A stretch of 30,292 bases of DNA, taken from the IMG/VR virus record IMGVR_UViG_3300025168_000416, positions 1-30,292 of that record. The stretch is one strand, 5' to 3'. Position 1 is the stretch's first letter. Each line of letters starts with the position of its first letter. Below are positions 10,746 to 30,292 of this stretch, in pieces. Source of the DNA: a virus. The notes under the pieces are model-generated. The model made no database searches and was not told the DNA's origin. It saw only the letters and a list, made by a program, of their open reading frames with translations. A program made the translations under genes and the position numbers.

Positions 10746-13700
10746 ATGCCAGAAATTAAAAACACTTTCACTCAAGGTAAAATGAACAAAGACCTTGATG
10801 AAAGACTAGTTCCAAATGGACAATACAGAGATGCAATGAACGTACAGCTTTCAACGTCTGATGGATCAGATATTGGAACAGTGCAGAATATATTAGGAAA
10901 CAAAAGTATTGAAAACGTAGTTGATATAAATGATGCTAAGTGTGTTGGTAGTGTTTCTGATGAAGGTAAAAATAGATTGTTTTGGTTTATTAAAAGCAAC
11001 TATGTAGACGCTATTATAGAATACTCTGTTGATATGGGTGTTAGTGCTGTGTTAGTAGACACTAAAGCAAATACATCTGAATCTGTTTTAAAGTTTCCTA
11101 ACAATATCATAACTGGTATAAACGTGTTTGACAACTTGTTGTTGTGGACAGATAACACCAACGAGCCTAGAAGAATAAATATAGACAGGTGTAAGAAAGG
11201 AAATCCAGCTATAACTTCATTGCAAACCGCTCCGCACACTAAATTAATAGTACAGGATGTAGACGAGGGTGATATTAAAGAAGATCACATAACCGTTATA
11301 AAGAAAAGCCCGTTAAAGCCTTTATCATACACTATACTACCTTCTAGTTTAGACAACAAAAAACCTTTATTTGAAAAAATATTCCCTAGATTTTCTTATA
11401 GATACAAGTATATAGACGGAGAGTACTCTACTTTCGCTCCGTTTACAGACGCGGTGTTTAACTCTTTGTATAGTGAAGATTTAGAAGGTGATCCTTATAA
11501 CCAAAACAACGCGTACGGTACAGAGGACCCTTATAACAACGGTATGCGTAATATGATTAACAGTGTAACACTGTATAATTTTATTGCTGGAGACATGCCT
11601 AAGGATGTTGTAGAAGTAGATTTGTTGTATAAGCAAGAAAATTCTACTGTTATTTATATATTAGAAAACATAAAAAATGATAGTAGCTATTGGAATAACG
11701 ATGGGTCAAACGCTAGTTCTAGTTATAAAGGATCTTTTGAAGTAAAAACAGAAAACATATACGCGGCAGTTCCAGAAAATCAATCTTTAAGAATATGGGA
11801 TAATTCACCTAAATCTGCCTTAGCGCAAGAGGTGACTGGCAATAGAGTTGTTTACGCTAATTACAAGCAAGGTTACGATCTATTAGACCAGAACAATAAT
11901 AGTTTAACACCTGTCTCTAGAGCAAGTTATGTAAATAGAAATATACTAGAAGATTCTTATGATTTTGAAAAAGGTGGTATACCTTCTTTAAAGTCACAAA
12001 GAGATTACCAGGTTGGAGTTGTTTATGGGGATAAATATGGTAGAGAAACTCCGGTGTTTACAAACGAAGATTCATCATTTAAAACTATTTGGGAAGACGC
12101 TAGTTCTTCTAATCAAATAGAGGCTAGTCTCTCTACTACTCATCCAAAATGGGCAGATTATTATAAGTTTTTTGTAAAAGAAACTTCTGGAGAGTACTAC
12201 AATTTAATAATGGACGCTGTCTACACTCCTACAGTAGAAGATCTAGATGAAATAAACGAAAAGCATGTTTGGCTTTCTTTTCCTTCATCTGATAGAAATA
12301 AAATCTCTACAGAAGACTATATGTCAGTAAAAAGGTTTTTAGACCCAACCGTTACTAGCGCTGTAAGTACGGAGAACAAGTATAAAGTTTTAGATGTTCA
12401 AAACGAAGCTCCAGAAGCTATTAAATACAAATATTTAAGGTATGGTAATATATCAAACGACAATGATGATTTAAACAGCTTGTTCTTTACAGACGCAACA
12501 TTACGTCCAGTAGCTGGTTCAGATTACATAATGATAAGTAAAACCGCTTACTTAAACCATGTTCAGGGTAAAGGTATGAACTTAACCTTAAACGAGCCTA
12601 CTGGAGCAAGTGAAAATATAGGTGATTTATATATAAAATTTACAAGAACATCTGGAGATGGTGAAGACCAAACTGATAGGTATAAAGTAAATAACGTTAG
12701 AGTCAGTGGTACTACTTATTTGATAAAACTAGAAAAGGGAATATCTACTACAGATGCAGCTATAATTATTGACGAGGCCGATCCTGCTAACCCCGACTTT
12801 AAGTCAGATGTCAACATGGTTATAGATAGAAAAGTGGTGAAGAACTTAGAGGCTTTTTCTGGTAGATTTTTTGTTAAAATAAGTAGAAGAGGTGTTGTAG
12901 GTGATCTTCAAGATGCTGAAGAAACAGAGTTGATAAACCGTGTGACTGAAGAAAAAAATATATACTGGCACGCGGATGTTCGTAATACCACAGATTACAA
13001 CCCCACTACCGGTATTATAAATTCTGATTCTGAACATACTAATGTAAGTAACAGTACTTTAACAACAAAAACTGTAGCTAATATTAGTAGTAATATAACT
13101 AACACGGAAACAGGGTGGGATACCATATTGACCGCGGTAGAACCGGCAAGTAAATTCTTTATAGATAACATGTATTTTGCTGCTAGTCAACCTAACCTAA
13201 CAGACGAAGCTTACGCTAGATACTCTGGACATGGTTGGAAAGGCGGGACGCCTAGCCCTATTGGTGATATAAGATACCCTACATGGCAAGGATTGAACAT
13301 TTTGGGTGATAACACGGCAGATTTTGCACCTCCCCTTCCATCTCATTACGAACAACAAGGGTTCGGAACTAGTAACCAAGATAGGCGTAGTGTAGGACAT
13401 CCTAATATAAACGTTGTGAAGCCAAACGATCCAGGTGATAACGGAGAGAATATGATTAATGGTATGGATGGTATCATTAAGACAGATGTAAACCAAATAG
13501 ATGGTAATGGTATAAAAAAATGGAAAAAGAACGTTGCTGTTGGTTATACAGGTAATTCAACTTATTATCAAAATGATTATGGAAACGTATCAGGTAAGCA
13601 GGTTATACATTTATCTTTTTTAGGCCCAGGAGCTGATTTGCACAATGGTAATTTTATTTCTGCATCGACCTTAAGTGGTCGCGGAGCTAATGGTTTGGCT

Positions 13701-16700
13701 AGGCAGTTACAAGGTATATTTGGAGGTGGAGTTTTTACAAATGAAAACGGATTTAATATTAGAGGAGAAAACTCTATATTGTGCGAGCAAGTTAAAAACG
13801 GGTTGGTAACTAAAACAAACAACCCTGGAACAACTACTGGTTCTCACGGTAAGGAAGGTTACGGCACAACTACCACTCATTTAAACAATCATCTTAGACA
13901 ATGGCTTCCAGAGTGGTCAGGTGGTAATTATAACGCAGACGTAAAGCGTGTTATAGATAGACTTCAAGGTGGTGTGAAGTTTAGATTTGAGGGTGATACA
14001 GATAGGGTTTTTACTATAGAGTCAGTGAAAGTAAAAAGATTATACAACCACACCTCTTGGAGAAAAATATTTAAGTGGGACGGCGTCGCTAATAGTGGAA
14101 ACGTAGTTACAAGAGGCGATAGTGTTGAAGACGCCGCTGTAGCTTGGGGTAACACAGCTCCAGGTGCTACGGCAACCGGTCTAGCAGGGGATTTATATAC
14201 TAAAATTAAAGATTTTGGAAAACGAAACAATAGAAGAGTTTGTTATATAATAACGTTAACTGATGATAGCCCAGATATAATTAACGGTGCTTTTAATCCT
14301 GTTGATGGTAACGAAAATAGTGGGCACGCTTTAAACTCGGTTGATTTTGAAAAAATACAATTTATAGATCCAGGCTTTAACTTACTGTCAGGTAATATAT
14401 CTCAAAATCCAGCTATATGGGAGACAGAACCTAAAGAAAACGTTGATTTAGATATATATTACGAAGCTGGGCAAGCATGTCCAATAACATTAACAGACGA
14501 AAATAGAGAGCTGTTTGCACCAGTGGGCTGTAGAGTTGAAATATCTGGAACGCCAAGTTTAGCAACAGGTGATCCTAACGTAATAGGATCCCCTTATTCT
14601 GTAACCTTTCCTTCAGAAAACAATTTATCCTCTTGGGCAGATGGAAATGTTATAGTATTAGACCTAGGTGTTGATTCGGAAGACGGTTCAGCAACTAATC
14701 TAATATACAATGGTATAAAAGTTAAATTTATAAGAGAAGATGGTAGTTATACCACTGGTGCAATAGTAGACGGTGATCCTGCTACCGCGCCAACATACGC
14801 TCTTAATAATAGAAAAGAGTTTGAAATTAGACCTCTTACTGAAACAGGATTAGGTTGGTATAATTGTTTTTCATTTGGTAATGGTATAGAGTCAAACAGA
14901 ATTAGAGATGACTTTAATGCTATGAAGATTTCTAACGGTGTTATAGCAAACTCTACTTTAGATAGGCTGTACGCGGAAGAGCATAGAAAAAATGGCTTAG
15001 TATATTCTGGAATATATAATTCAACAAATAGTATTAATAACCTTAACCAGTTTATTGCGGCTGAAAAGATTACAAAAGATTTAAACCCTACGTACGGTAG
15101 TATACAGAAACTTTTTTCAAGAAGAATAAGTTTAATAGCTTTTTGTGAGGATAGGGTAGTTGGTATTACGGCTAATAAAAACGCTTTGTATAATGCTGAT
15201 GGAAATCCACAGATAGTCGCTTCCAATGCTGTGTTAGGTGATGCTAATCCTTTCGTTGGAGACTACGGTATATCTAAAAACCCGGAGTCGTTTGCTAAGG
15301 ACTCATATAGAGCATATTTCACTGACAAACAAAGAGGTGCTGTACTTAGATTATCTATGGATGGTTTAACTCCTATATCAGACGCTGGAATGCACGATTA
15401 CTTTAGAGATAACTTAAAAACTGCCGGAAAGTTAATTGGTGTATATGACGATCACAAAGAAGACTATAACTTAACGTTAACAGATTTTTTACCAGAAAAC
15501 GTTATTGTTAATGGATTAATAGAAGAAGGTGAGGGAGGTTCTACGGAGTCATTTAATACAGCTGAAATTGTTATAGACGGAGGTTTTTCAAACGGTACAA
15601 ACGTAACTTTACCATCTACACCTGCAAATATTGCTAATAACTCAGATTTAGATAGTGATACTATTATAACTAACTATCCAGAAATAACTCAAGGAAGTTT
15701 ACAGGCTGAACAAGAAGAAAAAGTAGCTTACAATTGGAGTTTTGATCAACCTACTACGCCTCACACAATAATATACCATACTATAGAAGACACTAATTAT
15801 GGAGATTTTTTCTCTGTACCAGTAGGAGAAAACACAGATAAAGCTAGTGAGGCAATGTGGGACTTTCAAAATTATGGCCAAGGGTTTAATGCAACAAACT
15901 CTGGACATCACCCGTACTTAAAGAATGCTAATGGTAGCGGAACCGGTCAATCTAGTATTTGGGCTAAAACACAAAACTTAAATAGTGATTTAGTTGACCC
16001 AGAAGTATCAGGTGTAAATAACACAAATCCTACTACTAGTTCTAACCCAAATTATTTTGCTAACGCTATTGATTCAACTATTTTTCACAAAGAAGAATAC
16101 AAAGTTACTTTTACAGTACAGAATTACTTAAATCCTAATGATACAACTCACCACAGCCAAACAGGAGGAAGCCCGACGGACAACTATATAGATTTACAAG
16201 TATTGCTGTGGTCAAATCAGATTTTAAATTATGGGAATTATACTACAAGTACAATGCTGAACTTTCACTCAGATGGCACAACTCCTTATTTTGCCGATGG
16301 AATAGAGACTGTTAGTACTGCGGAGGATTATAATGCTGGATGGTTAACAAGTAACACCCACACGTTTAACGACGTGCCTTTAACCAATTCTAAAACCTTT
16401 AGCTTTCACTTCATGTTAGAGGGAGAAGAAGGTGTGGAAATAGATACTTTAACAGATCCTAGTAACAACATGTTGCTAAGTCCAATAGCTAACTACTTTA
16501 ATATACGCTTCTACAATGATAAAAGTAATTTATCTAGAAACTCAGTTATTATTAGAGAGCTTAAAATAGAAAAAACAAGAAAAGTAACAAGTCCAGGTAA
16601 TAACTTTTCACAACCTTATATACCAGCTGAACCACCAGCAGATGTATTAGCTTGGGCAGAGGTTGAGCACGTTGCCGTTAACGACTGGTCCGCTAATGCA

Positions 16701-19046
16701 AATATCATTTTAAACGATTTTGCGATAGATAAATATGGTCCTGATACAGGGTCTGGTACAACCGTTACTTACGATACCTATGATTACTCTACTGGAGTTA
16801 TAAACGGAACAGATACTTATATAGATGGAACACCAAATAACGACACTACATATAACGAATATGCTGATGGTAATTATCCTGAGGATGGTTACTTAGAAGC
16901 GACTACTAACGGTGCGGGTGGTGCCACCGCGTTTTTGACACAAGACATATCTGCTAATCCATTAGTAATAGATAACTGGTATGAAGTTAGGTTGGTAGGA
17001 GTTAACACAACTGGAAACGACGGCGTACTTGTATCCAACGCTTTAGATCCAAACAGCTTTCCAACAGGATGGGCGATAGGAGGTACGTTGCCTGGTCATT
17101 TAGGTACGATTAGTGCTGGTTCAAGCAAATCAATTAAGTTTAGTGACGAAGGTAGTGGTGAGTGGATAGCTAGATGGCAACAGAAAGATACTAGTGGAGA
17201 CTTGAACGAGTTAAAAATACATTTCTATGATTTCTCTGCTACAGTAGATAGAATAGAGTTTGCAGAAATATACGACACAGTAAACAGTGTAGGAAAAGTT
17301 ACTGGAGGAACTGTTGATGATTGGACTATAAACAACCCCAATGCTAGCGCAACGGGTAATTATATTACTTACCATTACTACAGTCCTAGAAAAAAAGTGT
17401 ACTACCATGGCAACGCTATTAGATGGGGTTACGATTCAACCTGGAGGGATGCTACCCCAACAGGGTTTGTGGATGTTGGTGGAGAAGATAATAACTACGC
17501 TTTACAAGCTGTTTCTATACCAGTTACAAATGACGGTTACGAACTTAGATTTCAAACATCAGTTTTTGATGCTGGGCAAGGCCCCGGAGTAAATACAGGT
17601 AGTTTACAAGGTTATGTTACAGGTGGATTTGAAGACGTTGACACTGGGCATACTTATGGCTTTGAGTTTGATGGAATAGAACAAGGTGGTTACTACAAAG
17701 TTACTGGAAACCTTGATGGCGCAACTAATCCTACTATAGAAAGAGTGCTTTCCGATTATATAACGCCAGCAGGTTCAACCGGAAGTTTAACCGTAGGTAT
17801 AAAAGACTTTTCAGGACCAGGTCACGCAGATAAGGTTTTATTCACACCTACAACCGGATCGTTTTTTAAAGGAAGGTTAGTAAACGTTTCTTTGAAAGAC
17901 GCTACTAATTACTTTACTACAACAAATGCGGAATCATGGTTGTTTGACGGTTTTGATCCAAATTTTGAAGACTATATTGTTTTTGATGACGTTAATGAAA
18001 ACATATTGTTTACAGATGCCCCTAATACGGTTTCTTTACAACAAAACATTGCGCATAATTTTACTACTGGATCTACTGTTCAGTTAAAGTTTGATGCTAT
18101 TGGTATAACTAGTGGTTCTATTAGTGGATATTTTTATAACAACGAGGGAGAAGGGTTTACGTTTGGACCAATTAACGCTGATACGAACTTTGATAGCGAA
18201 GATAACCCCAATAATAGAATTACAATTGGAGACTCTACGGTTACAGGTGGGGAACTATTAAACACCTTTGTTGCGTATGTAGACACTGAATATTTCAGTG
18301 GTACGTTAGATAACTTCGAGTTATATAGAATATACCCTGAGTTTATGCCAAGCACCATCACTTACAGTGAAGACGTTAAGGGTTGGGTGAGCTTTAAATC
18401 GTTTATGCCGGAATCTGGAGTTAGTTTATCAAAAGAACACTACACTATGAAAGAAGGTAAGTTATGGGTTCATCATATTCCGCAGTTTGATTCTTATGAC
18501 AAGGAGATTAATAGAAATACATTTTATGACCAGTTTATAGAGTCTTCTATTACAACGGTTTTAAACGCAGAGCCATCTACAATAAAAATATACAACACAT
18601 TAAACTACGAAGGAACTCAATCTAAAATAAACCTACACACTACTAAAGACGTTTTAGACGCTGGTGGTAACACTGTAACTCTGTCTAACGTTGAAATGTA
18701 CAACTTAAAAGCTAAAGATGGTTGGTACGTAGGTAGCATAACAACTGACAAGCAGAGTGGTAGCATAAAAGAATTTGTAGAAAAAGAAGGTAAGTGGTTT
18801 AATTACATTAAAGGAACTGGAATAACAGACACTACATTGCCGTCCACAGCTGATTTAAGCTTTCAAGGATTAGGAATGGTAGATAATGTAATTTCTAACG
18901 TGTCAAATAGTGGAGCAGGTAGCGCAGCGGCTAGCGGGGCGGCTTCAAGTGGAACAGCTGCGTCAGGTGGAGCAAGCGGGTCGTCAAGTGGATCGTCTAG
19001 TAGTGGATCAAGTGGATCAAGTGGTGGATCAAGTGGCGGATATTAA
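10746..19046 (+). CDS. Giant tail nozzle/hub-like protein with beta-sandwich modules
   Basis: This 2766-residue protein is by far the longest complete gene here. The N-terminus (NTFTQGKMNKDLDERLVPNG) and the segments around residues 420-560 and 1370-1580 (GDYGISKNPESFAKDSYRAY, then YFTDKQRGAVLRLSMDGLTP) look like a tail-tip beta-propeller protein of the T7 gp12/P22 gp10/crAss muzzle type, broken up by long insertions. From about residue 1630 to 2531 I see four successive beta-rich segments of roughly 140-320 residues that look like carbohydrate-binding or jelly-roll modules (about 1631-1950, 2019-2177, 2241-2385, 2397-2531). Residues 2534-2715 are a more conserved-looking C-terminal domain (DVKGWVSFKSFMPESGVSLS). 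The last 47 residues are almost only Gly, Ser and Ala. It follows the ring gene by three bases. It probably forms the tail tube exit and contacts the cell surface. The family call is from memory; module borders are approximate. Confidence 0.7.
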   Translation: MPEIKNTFTQGKMNKDLDERLVPNGQYRDAMNVQLSTSDGSDIGTVQNILGNKSIENVVDINDAKCVGSVSDEGKNRLFWFIKSNYVDAIIEYSVDMGVSAVLVDTKANTSESVLKFPNNIITGINVFDNLLLWTDNTNEPRRINIDRCKKGNPAITSLQTAPHTKLIVQDVDEGDIKEDHITVIKKSPLKPLSYTILPSSLDNKKPLFEKIFPRFSYRYKYIDGEYSTFAPFTDAVFNSLYSEDLEGDPYNQNNAYGTEDPYNNGMRNMINSVTLYNFIAGDMPKDVVEVDLLYKQENSTVIYILENIKNDSSYWNNDGSNASSSYKGSFEVKTENIYAAVPENQSLRIWDNSPKSALAQEVTGNRVVYANYKQGYDLLDQNNNSLTPVSRASYVNRNILEDSYDFEKGGIPSLKSQRDYQVGVVYGDKYGRETPVFTNEDSSFKTIWEDASSSNQIEASLSTTHPKWADYYKFFVKETSGEYYNLIMDAVYTPTVEDLDEINEKHVWLSFPSSDRNKISTEDYMSVKRFLDPTVTSAVSTENKYKVLDVQNEAPEAIKYKYLRYGNISNDNDDLNSLFFTDATLRPVAGSDYIMISKTAYLNHVQGKGMNLTLNEPTGASENIGDLYIKFTRTSGDGEDQTDRYKVNNVRVSGTTYLIKLEKGISTTDAAIIIDEADPANPDFKSDVNMVIDRKVVKNLEAFSGRFFVKISRRGVVGDLQDAEETELINRVTEEKNIYWHADVRNTTDYNPTTGIINSDSEHTNVSNSTLTTKTVANISSNITNTETGWDTILTAVEPASKFFIDNMYFAASQPNLTDEAYARYSGHGWKGGTPSPIGDIRYPTWQGLNILGDNTADFAPPLPSHYEQQGFGTSNQDRRSVGHPNINVVKPNDPGDNGENMINGMDGIIKTDVNQIDGNGIKKWKKNVAVGYTGNSTYYQNDYGNVSGKQVIHLSFLGPGADLHNGNFISASTLSGRGANGLARQLQGIFGGGVFTNENGFNIRGENSILCEQVKNGLVTKTNNPGTTTGSHGKEGYGTTTTHLNNHLRQWLPEWSGGNYNADVKRVIDRLQGGVKFRFEGDTDRVFTIESVKVKRLYNHTSWRKIFKWDGVANSGNVVTRGDSVEDAAVAWGNTAPGATATGLAGDLYTKIKDFGKRNNRRVCYIITLTDDSPDIINGAFNPVDGNENSGHALNSVDFEKIQFIDPGFNLLSGNISQNPAIWETEPKENVDLDIYYEAGQACPITLTDENRELFAPVGCRVEISGTPSLATGDPNVIGSPYSVTFPSENNLSSWADGNVIVLDLGVDSEDGSATNLIYNGIKVKFIREDGSYTTGAIVDGDPATAPTYALNNRKEFEIRPLTETGLGWYNCFSFGNGIESNRIRDDFNAMKISNGVIANSTLDRLYAEEHRKNGLVYSGIYNSTNSINNLNQFIAAEKITKDLNPTYGSIQKLFSRRISLIAFCEDRVVGITANKNALYNADGNPQIVASNAVLGDANPFVGDYGISKNPESFAKDSYRAYFTDKQRGAVLRLSMDGLTPISDAGMHDYFRDNLKTAGKLIGVYDDHKEDYNLTLTDFLPENVIVNGLIEEGEGGSTESFNTAEIVIDGGFSNGTNVTLPSTPANIANNSDLDSDTIITNYPEITQGSLQAEQEEKVAYNWSFDQPTTPHTIIYHTIEDTNYGDFFSVPVGENTDKASEAMWDFQNYGQGFNATNSGHHPYLKNANGSGTGQSSIWAKTQNLNSDLVDPEVSGVNNTNPTTSSNPNYFANAIDSTIFHKEEYKVTFTVQNYLNPNDTTHHSQTGGSPTDNYIDLQVLLWSNQILNYGNYTTSTMLNFHSDGTTPYFADGIETVSTAEDYNAGWLTSNTHTFNDVPLTNSKTFSFHFMLEGEEGVEIDTLTDPSNNMLLSPIANYFNIRFYNDKSNLSRNSVIIRELKIEKTRKVTSPGNNFSQPYIPAEPPADVLAWAEVEHVAVNDWSANANIILNDFAIDKYGPDTGSGTTVTYDTYDYSTGVINGTDTYIDGTPNNDTTYNEYADGNYPEDGYLEATTNGAGGATAFLTQDISANPLVIDNWYEVRLVGVNTTGNDGVLVSNALDPNSFPTGWAIGGTLPGHLGTISAGSSKSIKFSDEGSGEWIARWQQKDTSGDLNELKIHFYDFSATVDRIEFAEIYDTVNSVGKVTGGTVDDWTINNPNASATGNYITYHYYSPRKKVYYHGNAIRWGYDSTWRDATPTGFVDVGGEDNNYALQAVSIPVTNDGYELRFQTSVFDAGQGPGVNTGSLQGYVTGGFEDVDTGHTYGFEFDGIEQGGYYKVTGNLDGATNPTIERVLSDYITPAGSTGSLTVGIKDFSGPGHADKVLFTPTTGSFFKGRLVNVSLKDATNYFTTTNAESWLFDGFDPNFEDYIVFDDVNENILFTDAPNTVSLQQNIAHNFTTGSTVQLKFDAIGITSGSISGYFYNNEGEGFTFGPINADTNFDSEDNPNNRITIGDSTVTGGELLNTFVAYVDTEYFSGTLDNFELYRIYPEFMPSTITYSEDVKGWVSFKSFMPESGVSLSKEHYTMKEGKLWVHHIPQFDSYDKEINRNTFYDQFIESSITTVLNAEPSTIKIYNTLNYEGTQSKINLHTTKDVLDAGGNTVTLSNVEMYNLKAKDGWYVGSITTDKQSGSIKEFVEKEGKWFNYIKGTGITDTTLPSTADLSFQGLGMVDNVISNVSNSGAGSAAASGAASSGTAASGGASGSSSGSSSSGSSGSSGGSSGGY
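18908..19046 (+). repeat. Low-complexity Gly/Ser-coding repeat at the tail protein C-terminus
   Basis: The end of the 2766-residue gene encodes a tail of about 47 residues made almost only of Gly, Ser and Ala, closing with SSGGSSGGY. The DNA uses short degenerate repeats such as AGTGGATCA, repeated at the extreme end. It likely forms a flexible, disordered tail, and the repeats could change length by replication slippage. Confidence 0.85.
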
Positions 19047-20275: not shown

Positions 20276-20617
20276 ATGGCAATAAGAATAAACTTAAAAA
20301 ACGATATTGACAACGTTTCCTTACAAATAGGAGACGTTGCTTACTATGTTAAAGATGATGACACTAGCACTTCTGTAACTAGTTTTACTGATAGCGTTGA
20401 AAAAATAGGTGTGATAACTAGTATAGGAACTTCATATATAGTTGTTGACTCAACGGTCGAACCTCCTGCCGGTGCTTTTTTAATGTTTTCTAAAGACAAA
20501 GTAGCAAACAACACTAGTTTACTAGGTTATTTTGCTGAGGTTAAATTAATTAATAACTCTACAGAAAAAGCGGAGCTGTTCGCGTTAAGCTCAGAAATTG
20601 GGTTAAGTAGTAAATAA
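20276..20617 (+). CDS. Small conserved-looking structural protein, unknown function
   Basis: This 113-residue protein begins MAIRINLKNDIDNVSLQIGD. It has regular beta-strand patterns (DVAYYVKDD, KIGVITSIGTSYIVVDS, GAFLMFSKDK) and ends with LLGYFAEVKLINNSTEKAEL followed by a Ser-rich helix. The pattern suggests a small beta-barrel or SH3-like fold of the kind used in tail and neck parts. I recall similar small proteins beside tail genes in uncultured marine phages, but no function is known to me. It sits 8 bases after the 402-residue gene and 41 bases before the first ejection-type gene. There is no signal peptide and no membrane segment. Confidence 0.75.
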   Translation: MAIRINLKNDIDNVSLQIGDVAYYVKDDDTSTSVTSFTDSVEKIGVITSIGTSYIVVDSTVEPPAGAFLMFSKDKVANNTSLLGYFAEVKLINNSTEKAELFALSSEIGLSSK

Positions 20618-20658: not shown

Positions 20659-21495
20659 ATGGCAAGATTACCAGTGGGATATAGATCTCCTTTTAGTAAA
20701 ATTTCTTCAGTAAAACCTTCACCAATGAAAATTGCTTGGGCTCCAATAATAGCAGCGGCGGCTCCAGGTATAATCGCTGGTATAGGTAGTTTATTCGGTA
20801 GAAAGAAAAGGAAAGCAGAACAAAGAGCTGCTAGAGAAGAGATGGCGCAAGCTAAACAGGCTTTTATGGATATAGAGTATAAAAACCCGTATGCAGATTT
20901 AACAAACCCATACGCTGAAAACGTTTACGAAGACATGACCGTAGACACACAGGCGGCAGATTACTTAAAAGAACAACAACAACAATCACAAGCTAATATA
21001 ATGCAAGGATTAAAAGGAGTTGCAGGTAGTTCTGGCGTAGCTGGTTTAGCACAATCAATGTCTAATGTAGCTACTGGTCAAGCAAGACAAGCATCAGCTG
21101 GAATAGCACAACAAGAAAGAGCTAATCAACAAGCTAGATTAAAAGGCGAGCAACTTAAACAAAAAGGTCAATTTGGAGTTGAAAAAATGCAAGCACAAGG
21201 TGAGCTTTATAAAAGGCAACAAGAAAACACTAGAACAGCATCCATGTACGGTTTAGGTATAGAAAGAGCTAACGCCGCTGACACAGCTAGGTCAACTGCT
21301 AGATCACAATTTATTGGTGGTTTAGGTTCAGCTGCGGCTGGAGTTGCCGGATTATATGCTCCAGGTGGAAGTTTGTATGACACGCTTGGTGGAGATGGTG
21401 CAAGCGCTCCAACTGGAGATATGTATAGTTATCCCACGAATCAATATGCTGATATAGACGACATTCCTGGATTACCTGATTACTTAGCGCGTTAA
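20659..21495 (+). CDS. Internal virion / ejection protein (T7 gp14-like position)
   Basis: This 278-residue protein has one strong hydrophobic segment at residues 25-46 (IAWAPIIAAAAPGIIAGIGS) followed directly by the basic cluster RKKRK (48-52). A long Gln/Ala-rich helical region follows (about 52-215, for example QARQASAGIAQQERANQQAR), then a second Gly/Ala-rich hydrophobic segment near 218-238 (FIGGLGSAAAGVAGLYAPGG). Two short membrane-active segments joined by an amphipathic helical rod are the usual build of small podoviral ejection proteins such as T7 gp14 and P22 gp7, which insert into the outer membrane at the start of infection. It is the first of three genes whose sizes (278, 878, more than 2046 residues) parallel the T7 gp14-gp15-gp16 order. 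No sequence homology to T7 is claimed. Confidence 0.6.
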   Translation: MARLPVGYRSPFSKISSVKPSPMKIAWAPIIAAAAPGIIAGIGSLFGRKKRKAEQRAAREEMAQAKQAFMDIEYKNPYADLTNPYAENVYEDMTVDTQAADYLKEQQQQSQANIMQGLKGVAGSSGVAGLAQSMSNVATGQARQASAGIAQQERANQQARLKGEQLKQKGQFGVEKMQAQGELYKRQQENTRTASMYGLGIERANAADTARSTARSQFIGGLGSAAAGVAGLYAPGGSLYDTLGGDGASAPTGDMYSYPTNQYADIDDIPGLPDYLAR

Positions 21496-21505
21496 AAATT
21501 AAATT

Positions 21506-24142
21506 ATGGCAGAAGAAAAAACAACAGATAAAGACGGTTTACTAGACGATTTAGACACTAGCTTTGACACTCAGTTTAAGGGTGATAAAATGTTAGGTCT
21601 TGGAATGAACGCTATCCAACCTAAAGGCGTGGATAACACAGCGATAGATACTCAAATATCTCAGATAGAAAAACCTGCTAGTGGAAGCGTGTACGATAAA
21701 ATGGCGGCTAGATATAGATCGCAAGGTGAAGGAAAAGTGCTACGTACACAGAAAAACTTAAATAACTTATTTGGACCTACAATAAACTTAATAAAAGAAA
21801 GAGAGGCAGCTGCAGAAGCTAGATTTACTTTATTAAAGGATAAGATGCCTGAGTTTGATGATTCAACTATATTTGGTAATCAGAGTGGCAATGAAATGCC
21901 TATTAAAGATTATGTTATGGGTATTAGTAAGTCAGTAAAAGAAGACTTACGCATGTTATCTCGTTTAAACATTAATGACGAGAGGTATGATGAGGTAAAA
22001 AAGAGGGTTGAAAAAAACCAAGAAGCTATAGTTAATTTTGATGAAATTAACAAGAAGTTGTTAGAGATAAGAAACTCCCAAGACGGTCGTGAAGACCATA
22101 CTCAATGGAGTAAGGGTATGGATCAAACTACTATCGACATGTGGACAGATATATATTCTAGTAAAGGTGAAAACATAAAAATAGTAGATGGTAAGTTAGT
22201 ATGGACAGATACTAGAGGTGAGAGTAGTTATGATTTTGGGAGCGGCGATCCTAGGTTAGGCGCTAAATTCGAAGCACTTGGAGGTACAGAGAATCATCTA
22301 GGTCTTTTGGTAAGACACACTACAGATAGCAAGGGAAAACAAATGGAATTTAAAAACGGAGATACACATAAAGCTGGACCAGATGGTTATTTAGTATCAC
22401 AAGTTCAAACAAATTTAAAAGCAGGTGGATTTACTGATGGAGATGGTAACGAGCTTGAAGTAGATAATGAGTGGGGTCCTAAGTCCCAAGCCGCTTATGA
22501 TAAGTATTTAAGTGAAAAAGACGGATTAGAAAAAGCTTACTTAGATGAAAACTTACCTGAAGATTCAGAGTATAGAAAAACTTCTGGTACTGGTGGTACT
22601 AAAACCATAGACTTAAGTCAGATAGGTGAAGGTCCAACTTTGATAGATAACAAAGGTACTAACATGGACATTGCTTTACGAGGTGAAACTCAAAAGTTTA
22701 TTGAGATGGGTGGAAAAGTAGATGATCCTATGTATAATCAAATGATCAAGTCTAAGCTTTTTGAATTAAACAAAATAGGTCCTCAAGGATTTAAGTCTTT
22801 AATATTTGATGGTATTGGTCTTGAAGATACAGACATGTTTACTGGTTCAAACACTGATTCATTTATTGAAAAAGTTATAGCAGACACTTACGCTGGTGGT
22901 GATATAAGTAAATTATCAGAAAAAGAAATAGAAGGGCACATACAAGAAATGAAATCTGGAGACGTAACGTTGTCTTATAATACAGGAGAAATAGATCCCG
23001 AAACTGGAGAACCAGTTACATCTAGTTTACAATCGTTATTCATGAAGTGGTACAAAGGTGAAATTGATGACGCTATTACAGAAGGTGTGAAATCAAAAGT
23101 AGTAGCTTCGTCAAACCAATCAAACAATAACAACAACAATAACAATAATAGAAGAAAGAAAACTACTACTACTACTACTACTACTACTCCTACCGACACT
23201 AACACAAACGAAAACGATGATTTTAGCGCTCCTTTTATAGAACGTTTTGGAGGTGATTCAAACTCGATGTTTAGTGAACTTACAGAAAAAGGTGCTTTTG
23301 GTATAGATAAAGATAATATTCTTTTTAATTACGACGATAGTGATTATGCTGGTTATAACGAGGGTGGGTTAACAGTAGCTGGTAAACTAAACGAATCTTA
23401 TGGTGTTGATTTAAACACAATTGGAGACCTAGAAGGAACGGACGTGGGCAGTGATGGGCAAAGAATGTCGTTTTATTTTGAAGAAGTTGGTAGCATGGAT
23501 GATGTGATTAGGGTTCATTATAGAAGAGAGGATGGATCGTTAGTTGTTAAGGATTACGAGATAGATACCCTTGACAAGTCAGACGCTGCGTCAGCTACAA
23601 AAATGCAGAAAGATATGAGGCTATGGGTAAATCAAGATTTGAATAAAGTGAAAGCAAGTAAGGGTGCAGATGAGGTATACGTAGGTGAAGAGGGTGGTGA
23701 TTACAATGCAGAAACAGAAACAGAAACAGAAATAGAGGAGAAAAAAGTAACCCCACCTAAAGTTAAAAGTGAAATAATAAAAGATTTAGAAAATATAAAA
23801 GTGGACAAAGGCTTACTAGAGTTTCAGAGTAATTCTAGTGATCACACTGATATTGATGGGAGTAAAGTTTCGTTTTTTGTTCAGATTGGAGTATTTGAAA
23901 ATGATGTAAACGCTGAAACACTAGAGAGAATTAACTCAATTGGTGGAGCTGCAAAAATCCTTGATAAAGGTAATTTATACAAATATATCGCAGGAGCGTA
24001 CGGTTCTTTAACTGAAGCTGAATTTAGAGAGCAGGAGATTAGTCAAAACAGTTCTTCTCATCTTTTTCGTCCATTTATTTATGCTGTTATTGATGGTAAA
24101 CGAGTAGAAGTAGAAGATGCGATTACTTTCTTAAAAAAATAA
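21506..24142 (+). CDS. Ejection-type virion protein with SPOR-like and peptidoglycan-binding-like segments
   Basis: This 878-residue protein starts 10 bases after the preceding gene. Residues about 40-200 are charged and helical. Residues about 293-336 read LVSQVQTNLKAGGF, then VDNEWGPKSQAAY, the pattern of a peptidoglycan-binding_1-type domain ('V-x-x-Q-x-x-L-x-x-x-G' followed by 'VD-x-x-x-GP-x-(S/T)-x-x-A'). Residues 545-561 hold nine Asn, RRKK and nine Thr, a disordered hinge. Residues 788-850 match a SPOR domain: SFFVQIGVF, then NAETLERINSIGGAAKI, then GNLYKYIAGAYGSLTEAEF. SPOR domains bind glycan strands stripped of stem peptides, as at bacterial septa. The neighbours suggest a T7 gp15-like ejection protein, so it may anchor the ejection channel in the cell wall. 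No lysozyme or transglycosylase catalytic pattern was found. The SPOR match is by eye but good. Confidence 0.65.
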   Translation: MAEEKTTDKDGLLDDLDTSFDTQFKGDKMLGLGMNAIQPKGVDNTAIDTQISQIEKPASGSVYDKMAARYRSQGEGKVLRTQKNLNNLFGPTINLIKEREAAAEARFTLLKDKMPEFDDSTIFGNQSGNEMPIKDYVMGISKSVKEDLRMLSRLNINDERYDEVKKRVEKNQEAIVNFDEINKKLLEIRNSQDGREDHTQWSKGMDQTTIDMWTDIYSSKGENIKIVDGKLVWTDTRGESSYDFGSGDPRLGAKFEALGGTENHLGLLVRHTTDSKGKQMEFKNGDTHKAGPDGYLVSQVQTNLKAGGFTDGDGNELEVDNEWGPKSQAAYDKYLSEKDGLEKAYLDENLPEDSEYRKTSGTGGTKTIDLSQIGEGPTLIDNKGTNMDIALRGETQKFIEMGGKVDDPMYNQMIKSKLFELNKIGPQGFKSLIFDGIGLEDTDMFTGSNTDSFIEKVIADTYAGGDISKLSEKEIEGHIQEMKSGDVTLSYNTGEIDPETGEPVTSSLQSLFMKWYKGEIDDAITEGVKSKVVASSNQSNNNNNNNNNRRKKTTTTTTTTTPTDTNTNENDDFSAPFIERFGGDSNSMFSELTEKGAFGIDKDNILFNYDDSDYAGYNEGGLTVAGKLNESYGVDLNTIGDLEGTDVGSDGQRMSFYFEEVGSMDDVIRVHYRREDGSLVVKDYEIDTLDKSDAASATKMQKDMRLWVNQDLNKVKASKGADEVYVGEEGGDYNAETETETEIEEKKVTPPKVKSEIIKDLENIKVDKGLLEFQSNSSDHTDIDGSKVSFFVQIGVFENDVNAETLERINSIGGAAKILDKGNLYKYIAGAYGSLTEAEFREQEISQNSSSHLFRPFIYAVIDGKRVEVEDAITFLKK
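23123..23188 (+). repeat. Asn9 - RRKK - Thr9 coding microsatellite
   Basis: Positions 23123-23149 encode nine Asn with mixed AAC and AAT codons. After AGA AGA AAG AAA, positions 23162-23188 are nine perfect ACT triplets encoding Thr. The tract separates the N-terminal and C-terminal halves of the 878-residue protein. The perfect ACT run could expand or contract in frame by slippage. Confidence 0.95.
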
Positions 24143-24152
24143 AATTATATAA

Positions 24153-27100
24153 ATGCCAAATAGATACGAACTTCCCAACGGTAAAATAGTAGATGTAGAA
24201 GCTAAGTACTTAAACGACTTTACTAGAAGAAATCCTTACGCAAAGATTTTAGTACAGGGTATTAGTACGTGGAGAGATGTTGACGGCAACTTAATAAATG
24301 TTGAAGGTCAATATTTAGAAAGCTTTGTACAATCAAATCAAGGCGCCACGCTTTACCGTGGTAACAAAGAGTTAAAGGAGTGGTACAAAAAATCTGCTAC
24401 TCCTTATGCTGGCGATGAATTTACCATGAGTAGTTGGGATGGTTTTATGGATTGGTTTAACATTGATGAAGACGAAACTCAAGAAGAGAACAGTTGGTCA
24501 GAAACACTTTTAGGTAAAAATCAAGTTACAGATTTTTTTGCTGACATGACAAGAGGAATAGAATTAGGTGCTGATCAAGCCGCTGACGTTGATGATTTAG
24601 CTTTAATGTTTAATGTAAAAAAAGGTGAAAAGCTTACAGAAGAACAAGAAAAAAAATTATTTGAAGCCATAGAAAGACAGTCTAAGCTTCCTGTTAGCGA
24701 TGAGATGTTGACGTATATGAACACTCTTCAAATGAGTGAAAACGGTACTTTCAACATGATGAATGCTGTATCTGGATTTTCTACTAGTTTAATGTTTGAA
24801 ACCTTTGCTAGTTCAATGAGTGGTATGATTAGAGCCATAGGAACAAAAGAGGGGTTTGCGTGGGGATCTGCTGGCTCTGGTTTAGGAGCTGTTGGAGGTG
24901 CGGCAACAGGCGCTGCACTTAGTCCTTATATTGCTGGAGCTGGAGCTATACCAGGCGCTGTCATTGGTGCAACTTCTGGTTTTGCTGGTGGGTTAGGTGG
25001 TGTTTTAGAAGCTACTGGAAAAGTTGGGGAGTTGGTACGTGAAGAAATGGATGCGTTAGGTTTAGAGTTTAACTACGAAAACTTCCAAAAATTTGCTGAA
25101 GAAAATCCAGAGATAATGTTAGATATTAAATCAAAAGCAGTAACTAAAGGTGTTACGGTTGGCGCTATTGAAGGTTTGTTTGGCGCTATAGTGCCTGTGA
25201 AAGGATTAGGTAAAATTGGATCTAAGTTTGGTAAAGTATTCTCTAAACCTTTAGTTAGAACTGGAACAAGTTTTGTAGTGGAAGGTATTGGTGGTGCTCT
25301 TGGTGAAGGGGTTAGTCAATTAGCTATTGGTCAAGATGTTGATGTGAAAGAGCTTGTGCTAGAAGCTACAGGTGGAGGACCTATTAGTGCAGTTTCGGGT
25401 ATAAACCAGATAATTAACCCTGGAAAATACACGTTAAATGGTAAGCCTACTAATAGAAGTGAAGTTTGGAATGTTTTGTCAAATAAAAAGCTTACTGATA
25501 AGGAAATAGTAGAAATGGATCTTAGTGTAGAGAATGATCCAGTTTTAAAAGCAGAAATAAAAGCTAGAACAAAAGCGTATGAAAAGTTAGCTGCCTTACC
25601 AAAAGATAAAGACGGTAATGATATAATATCTTTTGAAGATAGAGAGAATATACTTAAATTAGAAAACGCGTTAGAAGATGGTAGAGGTAAAAACGCTACG
25701 TTAGTTGAGATCGATGGGATGTTGATTAACATAACGGATGTAAAACAACAAATAAAGGACATATACGGTAAATACGAAGGGAAAACAAAAGAAGAACTTA
25801 AAGTTGGAGACGTTAAAACAGCAAAAGATGTACAAGACGTTTTAACAAAAACACAAGTAGACTTTGCTGCTGGTAAACAAAAAGGTAAGGGATTAAATTT
25901 CGCATCTTTTGATTTTAGTAATCAGTTTGCGGACGCTATATCTGCAAAGGCAAAAGAACTTGGTGTTACAATTGACATGACTAATCTTGGTGAAGCTATT
26001 AAGTTTCAAGACGGTACTATATTTATAGACAAACAAAAAGCTGTGGAAACAAAAACGTACAACTCAGTAGGTTCTCATGAGGTGCTACATAATATTGTGG
26101 ATAACAAGTTTGACGCTCTTACAGATGACAAGAAGAAGACTTTAATAAAAGACTTTAAAGGAATATTAAAATCTAAATTAGACAGACAGACTTATAATAA
26201 AATAGTAAAACGTTTAAAAGCTAATTACGATAACTTAGACACCAACGTAGAGTGGTTTAACGTTTTTTCAGACGCTGTATCTAACGACAAAACATTTAGT
26301 GAGAAAAAAGGTTTGTTTAATTCTTTGCTTAAGTTTTTTAACAAAAATGTAAACGAACATACTGACTATAAAAACTTAGACTTTGGTAATGTAGATAACA
26401 TGTATGAGTGGCTTAAAACCTATTCTAAAGATGTTAAAGCGGGGAAAGATGTAGACGTTCAATTAGACGTTGGGGGAGCAACACAAGCTTCAAGATCAAA
26501 AGCTGTTGACGCTGTTAACGAGATGGAACAAGGTGCTACAACGCAAGAGGAGTTTTTAGCTAAAGAAAAAGTAGAAGGTGCTGATGGAAAAACTAAAGTT
26601 TTAAATTCACCATTTGAAAACGTGTATGACTCTATTGTTAAGAAAAATGGAGCTATCAATAACTATGTTAAGAGTTTAGGATTAAGTAAAGAAAAGTTCC
26701 AAGAAACTATTGATGCTGTTTCTGATAGATTAATAAATTACAATCCAGCTGCTAAAAGAAAAGTTAAAGATAAGAAAACTGGTAAAATAAGTGAAGAACC
26801 AATAACAATCGGTGAATTTTTAATGTCTAACGTTGGATTTGCGAAACTAGACGCTGCTAAAAAACTAGCTATAGAAGGTAAAAGAAAATCACAAGAACAA
26901 AGTACAGATATTGGAGCTACAACTAAAGAAGGTGATGTTAAGATGCAAGTCGAAGACACTGACACATCGGCACAAGAAGCTTTAGACGAGCAAGACATGT
27001 CTGTAGAGGGAATAGCTAAAACAAAACAAGACAAAGCTAAAGCAAAAGAAAAACAATACTCTAAGTTTAGAAAACAGCTAGGTATAGAAACAGGTAGTGA

Positions 27101-30100
27101 TTTATATAACAAAGTAATAGAAACAGCTAAGAAGGCTTTATTAAGAGCTTACGAGGTAGGTACGTCAGTAAGAAACATACAAAGAAAACTAAGAGACGAG
27201 GCTTCTGTTTATTTGTTTAAAGATATTAAAAACTTTTTAGGCACTAAAGATTATATTAAAAATATAACAGAGTATAGAGAGTTTATAGTAAACGCTATAT
27301 TCACTGCTGATTTAGTTCAGTTAGAGAAAATGGTTCCAGATGGTGAAAGAATATTTACTGTTTTTGATAGAGAGTTAACTTCAAAAGCTGATGTAGAAGC
27401 CGCTGTTGAACAAAACTTATTACCAAAAGAAGCTTTAAAAGTTATAGACAAAGGAAACTCTGTAAGACTTTACAGAAAAACAATGCCTACTAGTGCTCGG
27501 TTTATTAAGTTTTTTGATCAACCCGCTATCAACCCTGATACAGGTCAAAGATCTGGATTAAAAGGTACTAGAAAAGACGCTCTAGCTAAAGCTATGGCTG
27601 GATCTTTATCTTTTGACGCTATAATGGAAGTTGCTCAAGATCCTGAAGTAGCTCAGTTAAGACAAGATATTGCGGAGATTAAAGGAGAATCTTTAGCGCA
27701 AGATGATATACAGCAATTAGCTTCAGCTATAGGTAGAAATCCAAATGTTAAGTTTTCAATGAGTAATGTTGAAAAGAATATACTAGACCATATCTATGAG
27801 TTAGTACAAGACATAGGTAATGGAAAACGAGAACTTTTAAGTGTTGTTGGTAGCAAAGATGGTAAAGACTTTTTAAAGATAGATATAAAAAGAAAAAAAG
27901 CTTACAAAGCGCAAAACAGAAAAATAGCTATTGAAGACAAGAACTTTATAGCTAAAACTGTTAAAGATATAATAATCTCTAATCAGTACGGTAAGTTAAA
28001 AGATCAAAAACTTGAGAAGCAATACATTGAAGATATAATTACCGCAAGAAAAAAAGGTAAGTCACCAAAAATGGGTGATATCCATGAAAATACTTTTAGG
28101 GATCGATTCGTTGGATTGTTAAAAAAAATAAACACTAAAATACAGTCAGTTAAAGCTAAAGGTGATATTTATTTTAGTAACGGAATAACTATACTTGGAA
28201 TAGAAATAAAGCTAAATTTAGCCAGAGGGATATCTCAAACAATTAACTTTGTAAAAGGAAAAGCTGTTTTTTCAAATAAAAACGAAACCGTAAGCCATAG
28301 AGACAAAAGCATAACTTACGATGATGAGATAGGTGCTTTAACAGAAGAGCAGTATGGACTTGTGGAAAGCTTGTTTGTTTCTAATGGGCTTGGTAAAATA
28401 GCAGATAGTCAAATACTAACACCTAGACAAGCTGAGATTTTAAAAGGTGTTAAATCATTGTTTACATCAAGAATAACAATGAACAATGCTGATTATATTA
28501 GTTGGGGTTACGCTAATGGTAAGTATGCTTCAGCGGTACAGGGAATGATTGAAATAGGTCAATCAATGTTTAACCTAAATAACAGTGAAATAAGCAATAA
28601 CGTAGTTAATGATTACAACGCTAAAAATCCTAATGATCAAATAAAAGGTTTAAAACTAAAAGATGGTAAGGAAATAACTATGATTTCTTACGTTCAGATT
28701 GGTAAAAACAATAAGCTAACTTTTAGAATGGCACCTTTGTTGAATGATACTGATTTTGTATCTTCGTCAAACGTAAGAACTAAAGATAATAGTAAAATAC
28801 TAGCAAACTCTATTAACAACTCTTTAACGAAGGCTAGCAAGTCTCAAGCGATGAGTAGTATAGACAACGTTAATAGATTCTCTAGATCTACTAAAAACCC
28901 TACAAAAGGTATTACTATATTAGATTTTGATGACACACTTGCTACAAGTAGTTCTTTAATTAAGTTTACTAGACCAGATGATACAAAAGGTACGTTAACT
29001 CCAGAGCAATATGCTAGTACGTACGAAGATCTATTAGGATTAGATTATAAGTTTGACTTTTCTGAATTTAACAAAGTTGTAGATGGTAAACCAGCACCGT
29101 TACTAAACAAAGCTAAAAAGCTTGCGGGTAAGTTTGGTACTAATAACATGTTTATCTTAACAGCTAGACCAGCTGAATCTGCAGTTGCAATACAAAAGTT
29201 TTTAAAAGAAAATGGTTTAAATATACCATTGAAGAATATTACTGGATTAGGTAACTCTACAGCAGACGCTAAAGCATTGTGGGTATTAAATAAAGCAGCA
29301 GAAGGTTATAATGACTTTTACTTTGCAGATGACGCGATACAAAATGTAGAAGCCGTACAAAACATGTTAGATCAAATAGATGTTAAATCTAAGGTGCAAC
29401 AAGCTAGAGTTAAGTTTAGTAAGTCTGACATTAAAACACTAAAAGAATCAAAGGTTTATAAAAAGTTCTCAAACGGATTAAAAGGTAAAAAACTATATCA
29501 CGGAGGTAACAAGATTGTTGATAAAATACCTGGCGTAAAGAACGAAGAGTACTTAACTTGGTTTTGGAATAACGATCAACAAGGAGCAGAAATGCATATT
29601 GACGCTATGAGTGAAAGTGAAAATCCTATATATGCAAACCTACCTATATACGAAGTAGATTTTAACAGTATTAACGAAAGTCACGTAATATTTCCAGATT
29701 TTGAATACATACCTTATATGGTTATCAAAGAAGCTGTTGATAAGGTATATCCAGAGGGAAGAGCAGCAACAAAAACAAAGAAAAAGTACGCGGATAAAAG
29801 AGAACAAAAACTAAGAGACAAGCGACTTGAAGAGTCAAAGACTTGGAAAGGCAGTGACTACGGTGCCGCTGAAATTATGAGCGATCCTAAAGCAATGGAA
29901 ATACTAGAATATTTTTTAGAATGGTCGTTTAAAAACCCTGAGTTATATGAAGATTACACTGGATTACCTTTTTATGAAAATGGTGAAATTTCAAGAGGTT
30001 TACCTATGATAGTGTTAGGAGCAATACCAAGTAATAAACGTAGTCTAGTTGACCCTAAAGACTACAAGATGACTCCAAAGGTTTATACAGTAAGTTTTTC

Positions 30101-30292
30101 TAAAAGCTCTTTACGTGGTAATAAAGCTGTTAACAATCTACTTAGCCAAATAGACGTTAAGTCTAAGGTACAACAAGCTAGAGTTAAGTTTAGCAAGTCT
30201 ATGAACGAAGACTTTAATAATATACTAGAAGATGTGTCTGGTATTGATTCTATCAAAAGATTTTCTGAAGCTAAAGGTAAAAGACGTGGTAA
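24153..30292 (+). CDS. Giant modular 'polyvalent' ejection protein, incomplete at the window end
   Basis: The frame is open from ATG 24153 for 2046 codons and runs off the end; I read it through without a stop. In order: a 35-residue-spaced repeat at residues 9-23 and 44-58; Gly/Ala-rich hydrophobic segments at about 236-295 and 331-396, fitting membrane insertion; a zincin-like motif HEVLH at 642-646 with a possible third ligand E700 (VEWFNVFSDA); a PD-(D/E)xK-like set D1338, E1351, K1353; a HAD phosphatase module at about 1586-1735 with all four motifs (D1591/D1593, T1670, K1707, D1726/D1727); and an ADP-ribosyltransferase-like start LYHGG at 1781-1785. F-S-x-S linkers separate the later modules. 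It is the third of three ejection-type genes, the position of T7 gp16. I infer a virion protein that enters the host and carries several enzymes. Each catalytic activity is unproven. Confidence 0.75.
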   Translation, partial: MPNRYELPNGKIVDVEAKYLNDFTRRNPYAKILVQGISTWRDVDGNLINVEGQYLESFVQSNQGATLYRGNKELKEWYKKSATPYAGDEFTMSSWDGFMDWFNIDEDETQEENSWSETLLGKNQVTDFFADMTRGIELGADQAADVDDLALMFNVKKGEKLTEEQEKKLFEAIERQSKLPVSDEMLTYMNTLQMSENGTFNMMNAVSGFSTSLMFETFASSMSGMIRAIGTKEGFAWGSAGSGLGAVGGAATGAALSPYIAGAGAIPGAVIGATSGFAGGLGGVLEATGKVGELVREEMDALGLEFNYENFQKFAEENPEIMLDIKSKAVTKGVTVGAIEGLFGAIVPVKGLGKIGSKFGKVFSKPLVRTGTSFVVEGIGGALGEGVSQLAIGQDVDVKELVLEATGGGPISAVSGINQIINPGKYTLNGKPTNRSEVWNVLSNKKLTDKEIVEMDLSVENDPVLKAEIKARTKAYEKLAALPKDKDGNDIISFEDRENILKLENALEDGRGKNATLVEIDGMLINITDVKQQIKDIYGKYEGKTKEELKVGDVKTAKDVQDVLTKTQVDFAAGKQKGKGLNFASFDFSNQFADAISAKAKELGVTIDMTNLGEAIKFQDGTIFIDKQKAVETKTYNSVGSHEVLHNIVDNKFDALTDDKKKTLIKDFKGILKSKLDRQTYNKIVKRLKANYDNLDTNVEWFNVFSDAVSNDKTFSEKKGLFNSLLKFFNKNVNEHTDYKNLDFGNVDNMYEWLKTYSKDVKAGKDVDVQLDVGGATQASRSKAVDAVNEMEQGATTQEEFLAKEKVEGADGKTKVLNSPFENVYDSIVKKNGAINNYVKSLGLSKEKFQETIDAVSDRLINYNPAAKRKVKDKKTGKISEEPITIGEFLMSNVGFAKLDAAKKLAIEGKRKSQEQSTDIGATTKEGDVKMQVEDTDTSAQEALDEQDMSVEGIAKTKQDKAKAKEKQYSKFRKQLGIETGSDLYNKVIETAKKALLRAYEVGTSVRNIQRKLRDEASVYLFKDIKNFLGTKDYIKNITEYREFIVNAIFTADLVQLEKMVPDGERIFTVFDRELTSKADVEAAVEQNLLPKEALKVIDKGNSVRLYRKTMPTSARFIKFFDQPAINPDTGQRSGLKGTRKDALAKAMAGSLSFDAIMEVAQDPEVAQLRQDIAEIKGESLAQDDIQQLASAIGRNPNVKFSMSNVEKNILDHIYELVQDIGNGKRELLSVVGSKDGKDFLKIDIKRKKAYKAQNRKIAIEDKNFIAKTVKDIIISNQYGKLKDQKLEKQYIEDIITARKKGKSPKMGDIHENTFRDRFVGLLKKINTKIQSVKAKGDIYFSNGITILGIEIKLNLARGISQTINFVKGKAVFSNKNETVSHRDKSITYDDEIGALTEEQYGLVESLFVSNGLGKIADSQILTPRQAEILKGVKSLFTSRITMNNADYISWGYANGKYASAVQGMIEIGQSMFNLNNSEISNNVVNDYNAKNPNDQIKGLKLKDGKEITMISYVQIGKNNKLTFRMAPLLNDTDFVSSSNVRTKDNSKILANSINNSLTKASKSQAMSSIDNVNRFSRSTKNPTKGITILDFDDTLATSSSLIKFTRPDDTKGTLTPEQYASTYEDLLGLDYKFDFSEFNKVVDGKPAPLLNKAKKLAGKFGTNNMFILTARPAESAVAIQKFLKENGLNIPLKNITGLGNSTADAKALWVLNKAAEGYNDFYFADDAIQNVEAVQNMLDQIDVKSKVQQARVKFSKSDIKTLKESKVYKKFSNGLKGKKLYHGGNKIVDKIPGVKNEEYLTWFWNNDQQGAEMHIDAMSESENPIYANLPIYEVDFNSINESHVIFPDFEYIPYMVIKEAVDKVYPEGRAATKTKKKYADKREQKLRDKRLEESKTWKGSDYGAAEIMSDPKAMEILEYFLEWSFKNPELYEDYTGLPFYENGEISRGLPMIVLGAIPSNKRSLVDPKDYKMTPKVYTVSFSKSSLRGNKAVNNLLSQIDVKSKVQQARVKFSKSMNEDFNNILEDVSGIDSIKRFSEAKGKRRG
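29373..29426 (+). repeat. Linker repeat copy 1 in the giant protein
   Basis: These 54 bases encode residues 1741-1758, QIDVKSKVQQARVKFSKS, between the HAD module and the ADP-ribosyltransferase-like segment. They are identical in protein sequence to copy 2 at 30147-30200, with four base differences, all synonymous third-position transitions. Confidence 0.95.
30147..30200 (+). repeat. Linker repeat copy 2 in the giant protein
   Basis: These 54 bases encode residues 1999-2016, the same 18 residues as copy 1 at 29373-29426. The repeat follows the ADP-ribosyltransferase-like segment and is followed by a short Asp/Glu-rich stretch and another linker-like KRFSEAKGK at residues 2035-2043. Confidence 0.95.

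Follow-up and report, generated by a model that had tools for sequence, protein, structure and literature searches.

A truncated giant protein of a marine flavobacterial-phage fragment with a polyvalent-type architecture, exchangeable modules and a recurring end tag

The IMG/VR virus record IMGVR_UViG_3300025168_000416, analysed here in its complete length of 30,292 bp and called the window below, is classed as a linear fragment and comes from a marine flavobacterial phage, the last gene of which is a giant open reading frame (ORF) encoding several unrelated enzyme-like modules. The initial annotation described a single frame of more than 2046 codons, and the frame is indeed open from 24153 to 30290 with no stop codon. 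Since it runs off the contig, and the record is the entire fragment, the giant protein is truncated. We consider it likely that this giant is a phage polyvalent protein that is stored in the virion and injected, that would supply several enzymes, and that is assembled from interchangeable modules bearing a short terminal tag (the KFS tag). Polyvalent proteins are already known as a kind; the exchange slots and the tag are what is added here.

Enzyme modules of the giant protein

The layout of the giant and the genes upstream of it is given in Table 1. An N-terminal region (A) is followed by modules B to G and by the beginning of a C-terminal domain (H). Region A is shared with L002, L022, L023, L037, L045, L046, L061 and the uncultured podovirus MW202828. 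(L-numbers denote the related contigs and ORFs gathered here; L066-L070 are contigs from metagenome-assembled genomes, and L196-L201 and L202-L346 are prophage giants of the LPD38 type.)

Table 1. Features of the giant ORF and of neighbouring late genes in the window (res., residues of the giant protein)
Feature	Position	Strand	Basis or remark
Giant open frame, ATG 24153, 2046 codons, no stop	24153..30290	+	3' end cut by contig end
Region A, res. 110-561, two Gly/Ala-rich hydrophobic stretches	24480..25835	+	phrog_32588, E = 1.4e-38
Module B, zincin-like metallopeptidase, res. 561-765; H642, E643, H646, E700	25833..26447	+	Invariant columns
Module C, res. 784-956, no assigned function	26502..27020	+	Conserved in 12 related ORFs
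Module D, res. 961-1203, no assigned function; terminal tag VKFSMS (res. 1200)	27033..27761	+	Conserved in 8 related ORFs
Module E, PD-(D/E)XK-like nuclease, res. 1200-1577; E1312, D1338, E1351, K1353; terminal tag NRFSRS	27750..28883	+	
Module F, HAD phosphatase, res. 1578-1758; terminal tag VKFSKS	28884..29426	+	Motifs invariant in 44 sequences; phrog_415
HAD tail and tag, copy 1, EAVQNMLDQIDVKSKVQQARVKFSKS	29349..29426	+	
Inserted module G, res. 1759-1990	29427..30122	+	Not in any relative; no homologue found
HAD tail and tag, copy 2, KAVNNLLSQIDVKSKVQQARVKFSKS, closing inserted module G	30123..30200	+	
C-terminal helical domain H, first ~34 residues, remainder off contig	30189..30290	+	Alignment with relatives
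Muzzle-type tail protein, 2766 aa	10746..19046	+	crAss_MUZ_C, E = 4.6e-9 (above cut-off); phrog_14478, E = 1e-127
278-aa gene, Ala/Gly-rich hydrophobic stretch, possible ejection protein	20659..21495	+	Sequence; neighbour kept in L061, L023, L052
878-aa cargo-type gene upstream of giant	21506..24142	+	Weak phrog_2649 (peptidoglycan-binding) and SPOR matches; adjoins giant in L061, L022

Three of the four enzyme modules named in the initial annotation hold by their catalytic residues. In the zincin-like module, no column other than H642, E643, H646 and E700 is invariant across 19 divergent relatives, which are 15-33% identical to the window, and an HExxH motif is found in 64 of the 72 long relatives, compared with 0.6 in shuffled sequences. 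For the nuclease-like module, profile comparison connected a first set of four relatives with a second subfamily (hhalign P = 2e-5). In the joint alignment of 11 sequences from the two subfamilies, E1312, D1338, E1351, K1353 and one upstream lysine are at least 90% conserved. Structure prediction had been proposed as a check on this block: the AlphaFold2 model (predicted local distance difference test score, pLDDT, 76) has a helix and then strands in the order expected for an alpha-beta-beta-beta-alpha-beta core, but its fold match in the PDB was not significant. In the HAD module, D1591, D1593, T1595, T1670, K1707, D1726 and D1727, which make up motifs I (DxDxT), II (T), III (K) and IV (DD), are invariant in 44 sequences, and residues 1578-1747 match PHROG 415, 'polynucleotide kinase' (E = 2.4e-6). 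The zincin, nuclease and HAD modules are thus supported by conserved catalytic residues, with their activities predicted from these. The phosphatase is of the polynucleotide-kinase type, and 11 relatives pair it with a P-loop kinase; it could mend nucleic-acid ends of the phage itself or of the host rather than attack the host, and so may not be host-directed as in the initial annotation.

The fourth module was thought to be a possible ADP-ribosyltransferase (ART). Module G has no Pfam match (the top hit, at E = 0.05, is unrelated), and none was found among PDB sequences, cultured phages, IMG/VR contigs or the at least 182 related ORFs described below. The ART assignment goes back to a YHGG-type motif only, and we keep it as a tentative one. 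Weak ART-PolyVal matches are present in a neighbouring slot in the relatives L023 (E = 0.0019, below the curated cut-off) and L162. The 'membrane segments' of the initial annotation are there as two Gly/Ala-rich stretches (about residues 238-290 and 329-352), but the best 19-residue hydropathy of 1.5 is marginal for a transmembrane helix.

The Gly/Ala-rich N-terminus, the conserved helical C-terminal domain and the several modules without assigned function would also suit a protein that serves chiefly in ejection or as a channel, its enzyme-like modules having decayed or been put to use in assembly. However, few columns are as conserved as the catalytic residues while the sequence around them diverges, the HAD motifs are invariant, and relatives carry intact inserted P-loop kinases. 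We therefore regard a chiefly structural role as improbable.

A family of related giants with fixed insertion slots

A locus search with the whole giant protein returned no relatives, and a search of its own genome returned nothing but the window itself. The family was found with a degenerate, back-translated DNA pattern of the repeated linker DVKSKVQQAR, which occurs in 64 viral contigs and, in a slightly shorter version, in 5 genome contigs, always within long open frames. With a second pattern for the HAD active site, the family comprises, among the matches listed, at least 182 HAD-bearing ORFs from viral contigs and a few genome contigs. It is a large, hitherto unlabelled protein family of marine phages that Pfam hardly detects and that has no match in cultured phages by tblastn. 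Five contigs of metagenome-assembled genomes (L066-L070; Aliivibrio, Woesearchaeota, Ilumatobacteraceae and Bacteroidetes) also carry the family; most are short, and they are probably phage contigs mis-binned with host genomes.

Where the 3' end is intact, as in 132 ORFs, the frame always extends 661-1,138 residues beyond the HAD domain. Seventy of these C-terminal ends align as one conserved region, of which the window keeps just the first 34 residues; some 630-700 residues are expected to be missing from it. This domain H, modelled by AlphaFold2 from L062 with the 70-sequence alignment, is all-helical (pLDDT 82). Compared with the BFVD, the model matches 57 viral proteins at E <= 1e-3, with values down to 1e-11 and sequence identities of 11-15%. 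After four close marine relatives, the matches are mostly later pieces of giants from podo-, sipho- and myoviruses, and several of them are annotated as PolyVal ART, large polyvalent-protein-associated domain, MuF-C, nuclease or methylase.

Within this hitherto uncharacterised family, modules are exchanged at fixed slots. The HAD domain has two of them, one in its cap (after the nucleophile motif) and one behind it. The cap slot is occupied in 23 ORFs, by P-loop kinases (11 ORFs), ART-like domains (3), another domain (1, L173) and short inserts (8). Two of the cap kinases were scanned and match Pfam AAA_33 or zeta toxin with E-values of 1e-11 to 5e-16. A kinase within a phosphatase is an unusual arrangement; it occurs in L024, L036, L066, L068, L087, L114, L123, L139, L151, L172 and L175.

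The slot behind the HAD domain holds inserts in six cases (the window, L097, L125, L129, L133 and L134), and each insert is closed by a copied HAD tail and tag. In the window, the 232-residue module G was inserted here together with the second tail and tag. The two tails are identical at 22 of 26 residues and 61 of 78 bases, and in their core at 18 of 18 residues and 50 of 54 bases. The other five contigs have a common domain in this position that is unrelated to G and appears GNAT-like by eye. The cap insert of L173 (L173:696-1157), also judged by eye, resembles a circularly permuted relative of that domain.

Exchange is also seen upstream of the HAD domain. The nearest relative, L061, is 91% identical to the window in the HAD domain and 48% in the upstream modules, and in L061 an unrelated module of 369 residues replaces the entire nuclease module, flanked by the same two tags.

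The KFS tag at module ends

The tag has the consensus [NG][VAI]KFS[KR][ST], with the core [VAI]KFS[KR][ST]. The counts that follow come from related proteins and so are not independent events. In total, 119 non-redundant upstream regions contain 84 instances of [VIAL][KR]FS, compared with 18.7 +/- 4.4 in shuffled sequences (maximum 31). With a following K or R the motif occurs 49 times versus 2.6 expected, and the 23 other orders of the four letter classes give 7-33 occurrences each. Homologous segments end within 15 residues of a tag in 312 cases versus 58 at random (0 of 300 random placements reach 312), while starts near a tag number 29 versus 70 expected. As segment ends rather than starts fall at tags, the tag closes modules.

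A passive origin of this pattern has a little under an even chance in our estimation: the tag could be a structural end, consisting of a last strand and a flexible linker, or a recombination seam that is kept since exchange occurs there. Module swaps fall exactly at tags, and a VKS segment precedes the HAD tag. A set of 69 LPD38-type giants is enriched in a similar module end, D[IV][RK][FY]S (14 versus 0.8 expected), which there mostly reads NPDIR[FY]S, so that such ends may be a common design of domain termini. On the other hand, unrelated domains are followed by the same short tag, and, with the HAD end excluded, the serine of the tag has a TCN codon in 63 cases and an AGY codon in 50, which is near background. 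This mixture implies that selection acts on the residues and not on the DNA, and a recombination seam at the DNA level is thus not favoured. The LPD38-type giants L206-L211, L249-L252, L260, L262 and L267 often end a module in KSATGN.G.FDP.NPDIR[FY]S, possibly a wider version of the tag.

Selection on residues would also be expected of a processing site, where the modules of a polyprotein would be freed, either before packaging or after injection, by a cut at KFS or behind it, made by its own zincin or another protease. Tags are confined to the C-terminal ends of modules, and each of two different domains has kept its copy of the tag: the HAD domain, and then either G or the unrelated domain of the five contigs with a post-HAD insert. 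Furthermore, carriers of a B-type zincin are richer in tags (0.95 versus 0.37, p = 0.009), and zincin processing of polyvalent proteins was proposed by Iyer et al. (2017, PMC5512222). However, the link with B-type zincins may reflect shared ancestry. The number of tags is not linked to the presence of any HExxH inside the family (p = 0.60), and no link is seen in the 69 LPD38-type giants either (p = 0.91 with a broader motif). In addition, 43 of the 72 long upstream regions lack a tag, and the N4 virion RNA polymerase is packaged uncut despite its metallopeptidase domain (PMC5512222). We find a processing site possible but doubtful, and did not adopt cutting at the tag by the zincin as the main explanation, given correlations that are mixed in the family and absent in the LPD38-type giants.

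A bolder form of this idea, which we rate as rather unlikely, is that KFS[KR][ST] is the missing release signal of polyvalent proteins, recognised by the protein's own zincin or some other protease, which would free the enzymes after injection and at the same time allow modules to be exchanged. The giants would then be true polyproteins with plug-in cassettes. Processing into separate enzymes has been proposed since 2017, but neither the consulted parts of PMC5512222 nor the titles and abstracts returned by our literature search mention such a tag or describe a release signal. The KFS tag is a concrete candidate for one: it marks module ends, it persists through exchange, and natural duplications of it are at hand. 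Together with the exchange slots it renders the old polyprotein-processing proposal directly testable, and the catalytic residues for such tests are named above for the zincin, nuclease and HAD modules.

Gene neighbourhood and comparison with known systems

By sequence, the phage is a relative of short-tailed flavophages and has a crAss-type muzzle. Its large terminase is 63% identical to that of MW202828 and 45% to those of Flavobacterium elemoviruses, and also matches phages of Cellulophaga, Tenacibaculum and Maribacter. The late block runs in the order terminase, portal, an acidic gene without assignment, major capsid, ring-type genes, the muzzle-type protein, two small genes, the 278-aa gene, the 878-aa gene and the giant. 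The initial annotation had placed the giant in an ejection-protein gene order, and its position after the muzzle, the small genes and the 278-aa and 878-aa genes is repeated in relatives: upstream genes of the window lie beside the giant in four of them, in the same order. The elemovirus, phi38:1 and MW202828 each have a giant gene at the corresponding position, deposited as 'structural protein' in the elemovirus and phi38:1. In crAss001, mass spectrometry identified gp45-gp47, gp49 and gp50, encoded beside the muzzle gp44, as virion cargo (PMC10172136). Because our phage has a crAss-type muzzle, the giant occupies the position of these cargo genes.

At 2766 aa, the muzzle-type protein is about twice as long as its counterparts in phi38:1 (1324 aa), the elemovirus (1493 aa) and MW202828 (1551 aa), and its segment 1381-1578 recurs near the giants of L037, L041, L045 and L060. 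The gene at 20276-20617 and the C-terminus of the muzzle-type protein (10746-19046) both match phrog_18548, at different ends of the profile, which points to a fibre or docking domain that the two genes share or that is divided between them.

The polyvalent-protein assignment is based on the architecture, the gene context and the predicted fold of the relatives' C-terminus. At least two disparate activities are predicted, an HExxH motif with a downstream glutamate is present, and the gene lies among late virion genes; a multi-enzyme giant of polyvalent type within a virion gene block, as first proposed from the sequence, is therefore well supported. The giant would be synthesised late, alongside the tail and cargo genes, and then kept in the particle, a location suggested by gene position. 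It would be threaded through the muzzle with or just ahead of the DNA, so that a new flavobacterial host would receive, in the first minutes, ready-made enzymes acting on nucleic acids and proteins. The constant parts of such a protein would be the N-terminal region (within this sub-lineage), the HAD hub and, most likely for loading and ejection, the helical domain at the C-terminus, while the zincin, C, D, nuclease and G would be the interchangeable parts here, several of them terminated by a tag. Since a module takes the tag along at its C-terminal end, modules could be added or exchanged in frame. These clean swaps at a short repeated end tag suggest how phages keep rebuilding their injected toolkits.

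Several observations weigh against a virion-borne polyvalent protein. No mass spectrometry of virions was found for this phage or any family member, and the 'structural protein' label of phi38:1 gp101 was itself assigned by similarity; homology of region A to gp101 is not supported, as hhalign detected no similarity at the profile level. The whole protein, the HAD domain and the C-terminal domain had no tblastn match in 50,697 phage records, and thus no cultured relative. The fold search of module E in the PDB gave no significant match (Hjc, with Z 4.2, and FokI top the lists, from which the absence of other families carries no weight), and the model of domain H has no PDB match. Nor does domain H have detectable profile similarity to the C-terminus of LPD38-type giants, and we do not adopt the reading that the two are the same domain. 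The lack of proteomics for the family would also fit an intracellular late enzyme that is merely encoded next to virion genes. However, both the precedent of crAss001 and the location of the gene, after the muzzle and genes of cargo type, speak against this alternative, which we judge highly improbable.

Interpreted as a polyvalent protein, the giant shares features with several known systems. T4 Alt is the precedent for an ADP-ribosyltransferase carried in the virion; it differs in that no ART is confirmed in the window protein. In the N4-type virion RNA polymerase, a metallopeptidase domain is likewise part of a giant protein with several domains, one that is injected; the window protein is multi-domain with a zincin. 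Unlike the N4 polymerase, the window protein, which is incomplete at its C-terminus, has no Pfam or PHROG match to an RNA-polymerase domain. The proteins gp45, gp46, gp47, gp49 and gp50 of crAss001 are similarly large and encoded after the muzzle; they travel in the head and the tail and are ejected (PMC10172136), as the giant would be. Of these, gp47, gp49 and gp50 are related to RNA polymerases, and no polymerase domain was found in the giant. The HAD module matches the T4-type polynucleotide kinase-phosphatase (phrog_415), and a P-loop kinase accompanies it in the 11 relatives mentioned above. Unlike in the T4-type enzyme, the HAD is a domain within a giant and the kinase, where present, sits in its cap. 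This cap kinase also resembles zeta-toxin families.

The closest likeness in kind is to the polyvalent proteins of Iyer et al. (PMC5512222), which also combine unrelated enzyme domains in one polypeptide, have a zincin-like peptidase (their commonest domain) and are encoded among late virion genes. Annotated polyvalent proteins and the giant's relatives also have a C-terminal domain that is similar by predicted fold. Unlike the described examples, the window protein has no Pfam LPD, ART-PolyVal or MuF-C match. The HAD hub with cap and post-HAD slots and the KFS tag are features of the giant family that are not found in the consulted parts of that paper. The LPD38-type prophage giants differ in that their C-termini are unrelated at the profile level, but they too are modular proteins, of 2,000-3,700 aa, and some of their modules end in D[IV]R[FY]S.

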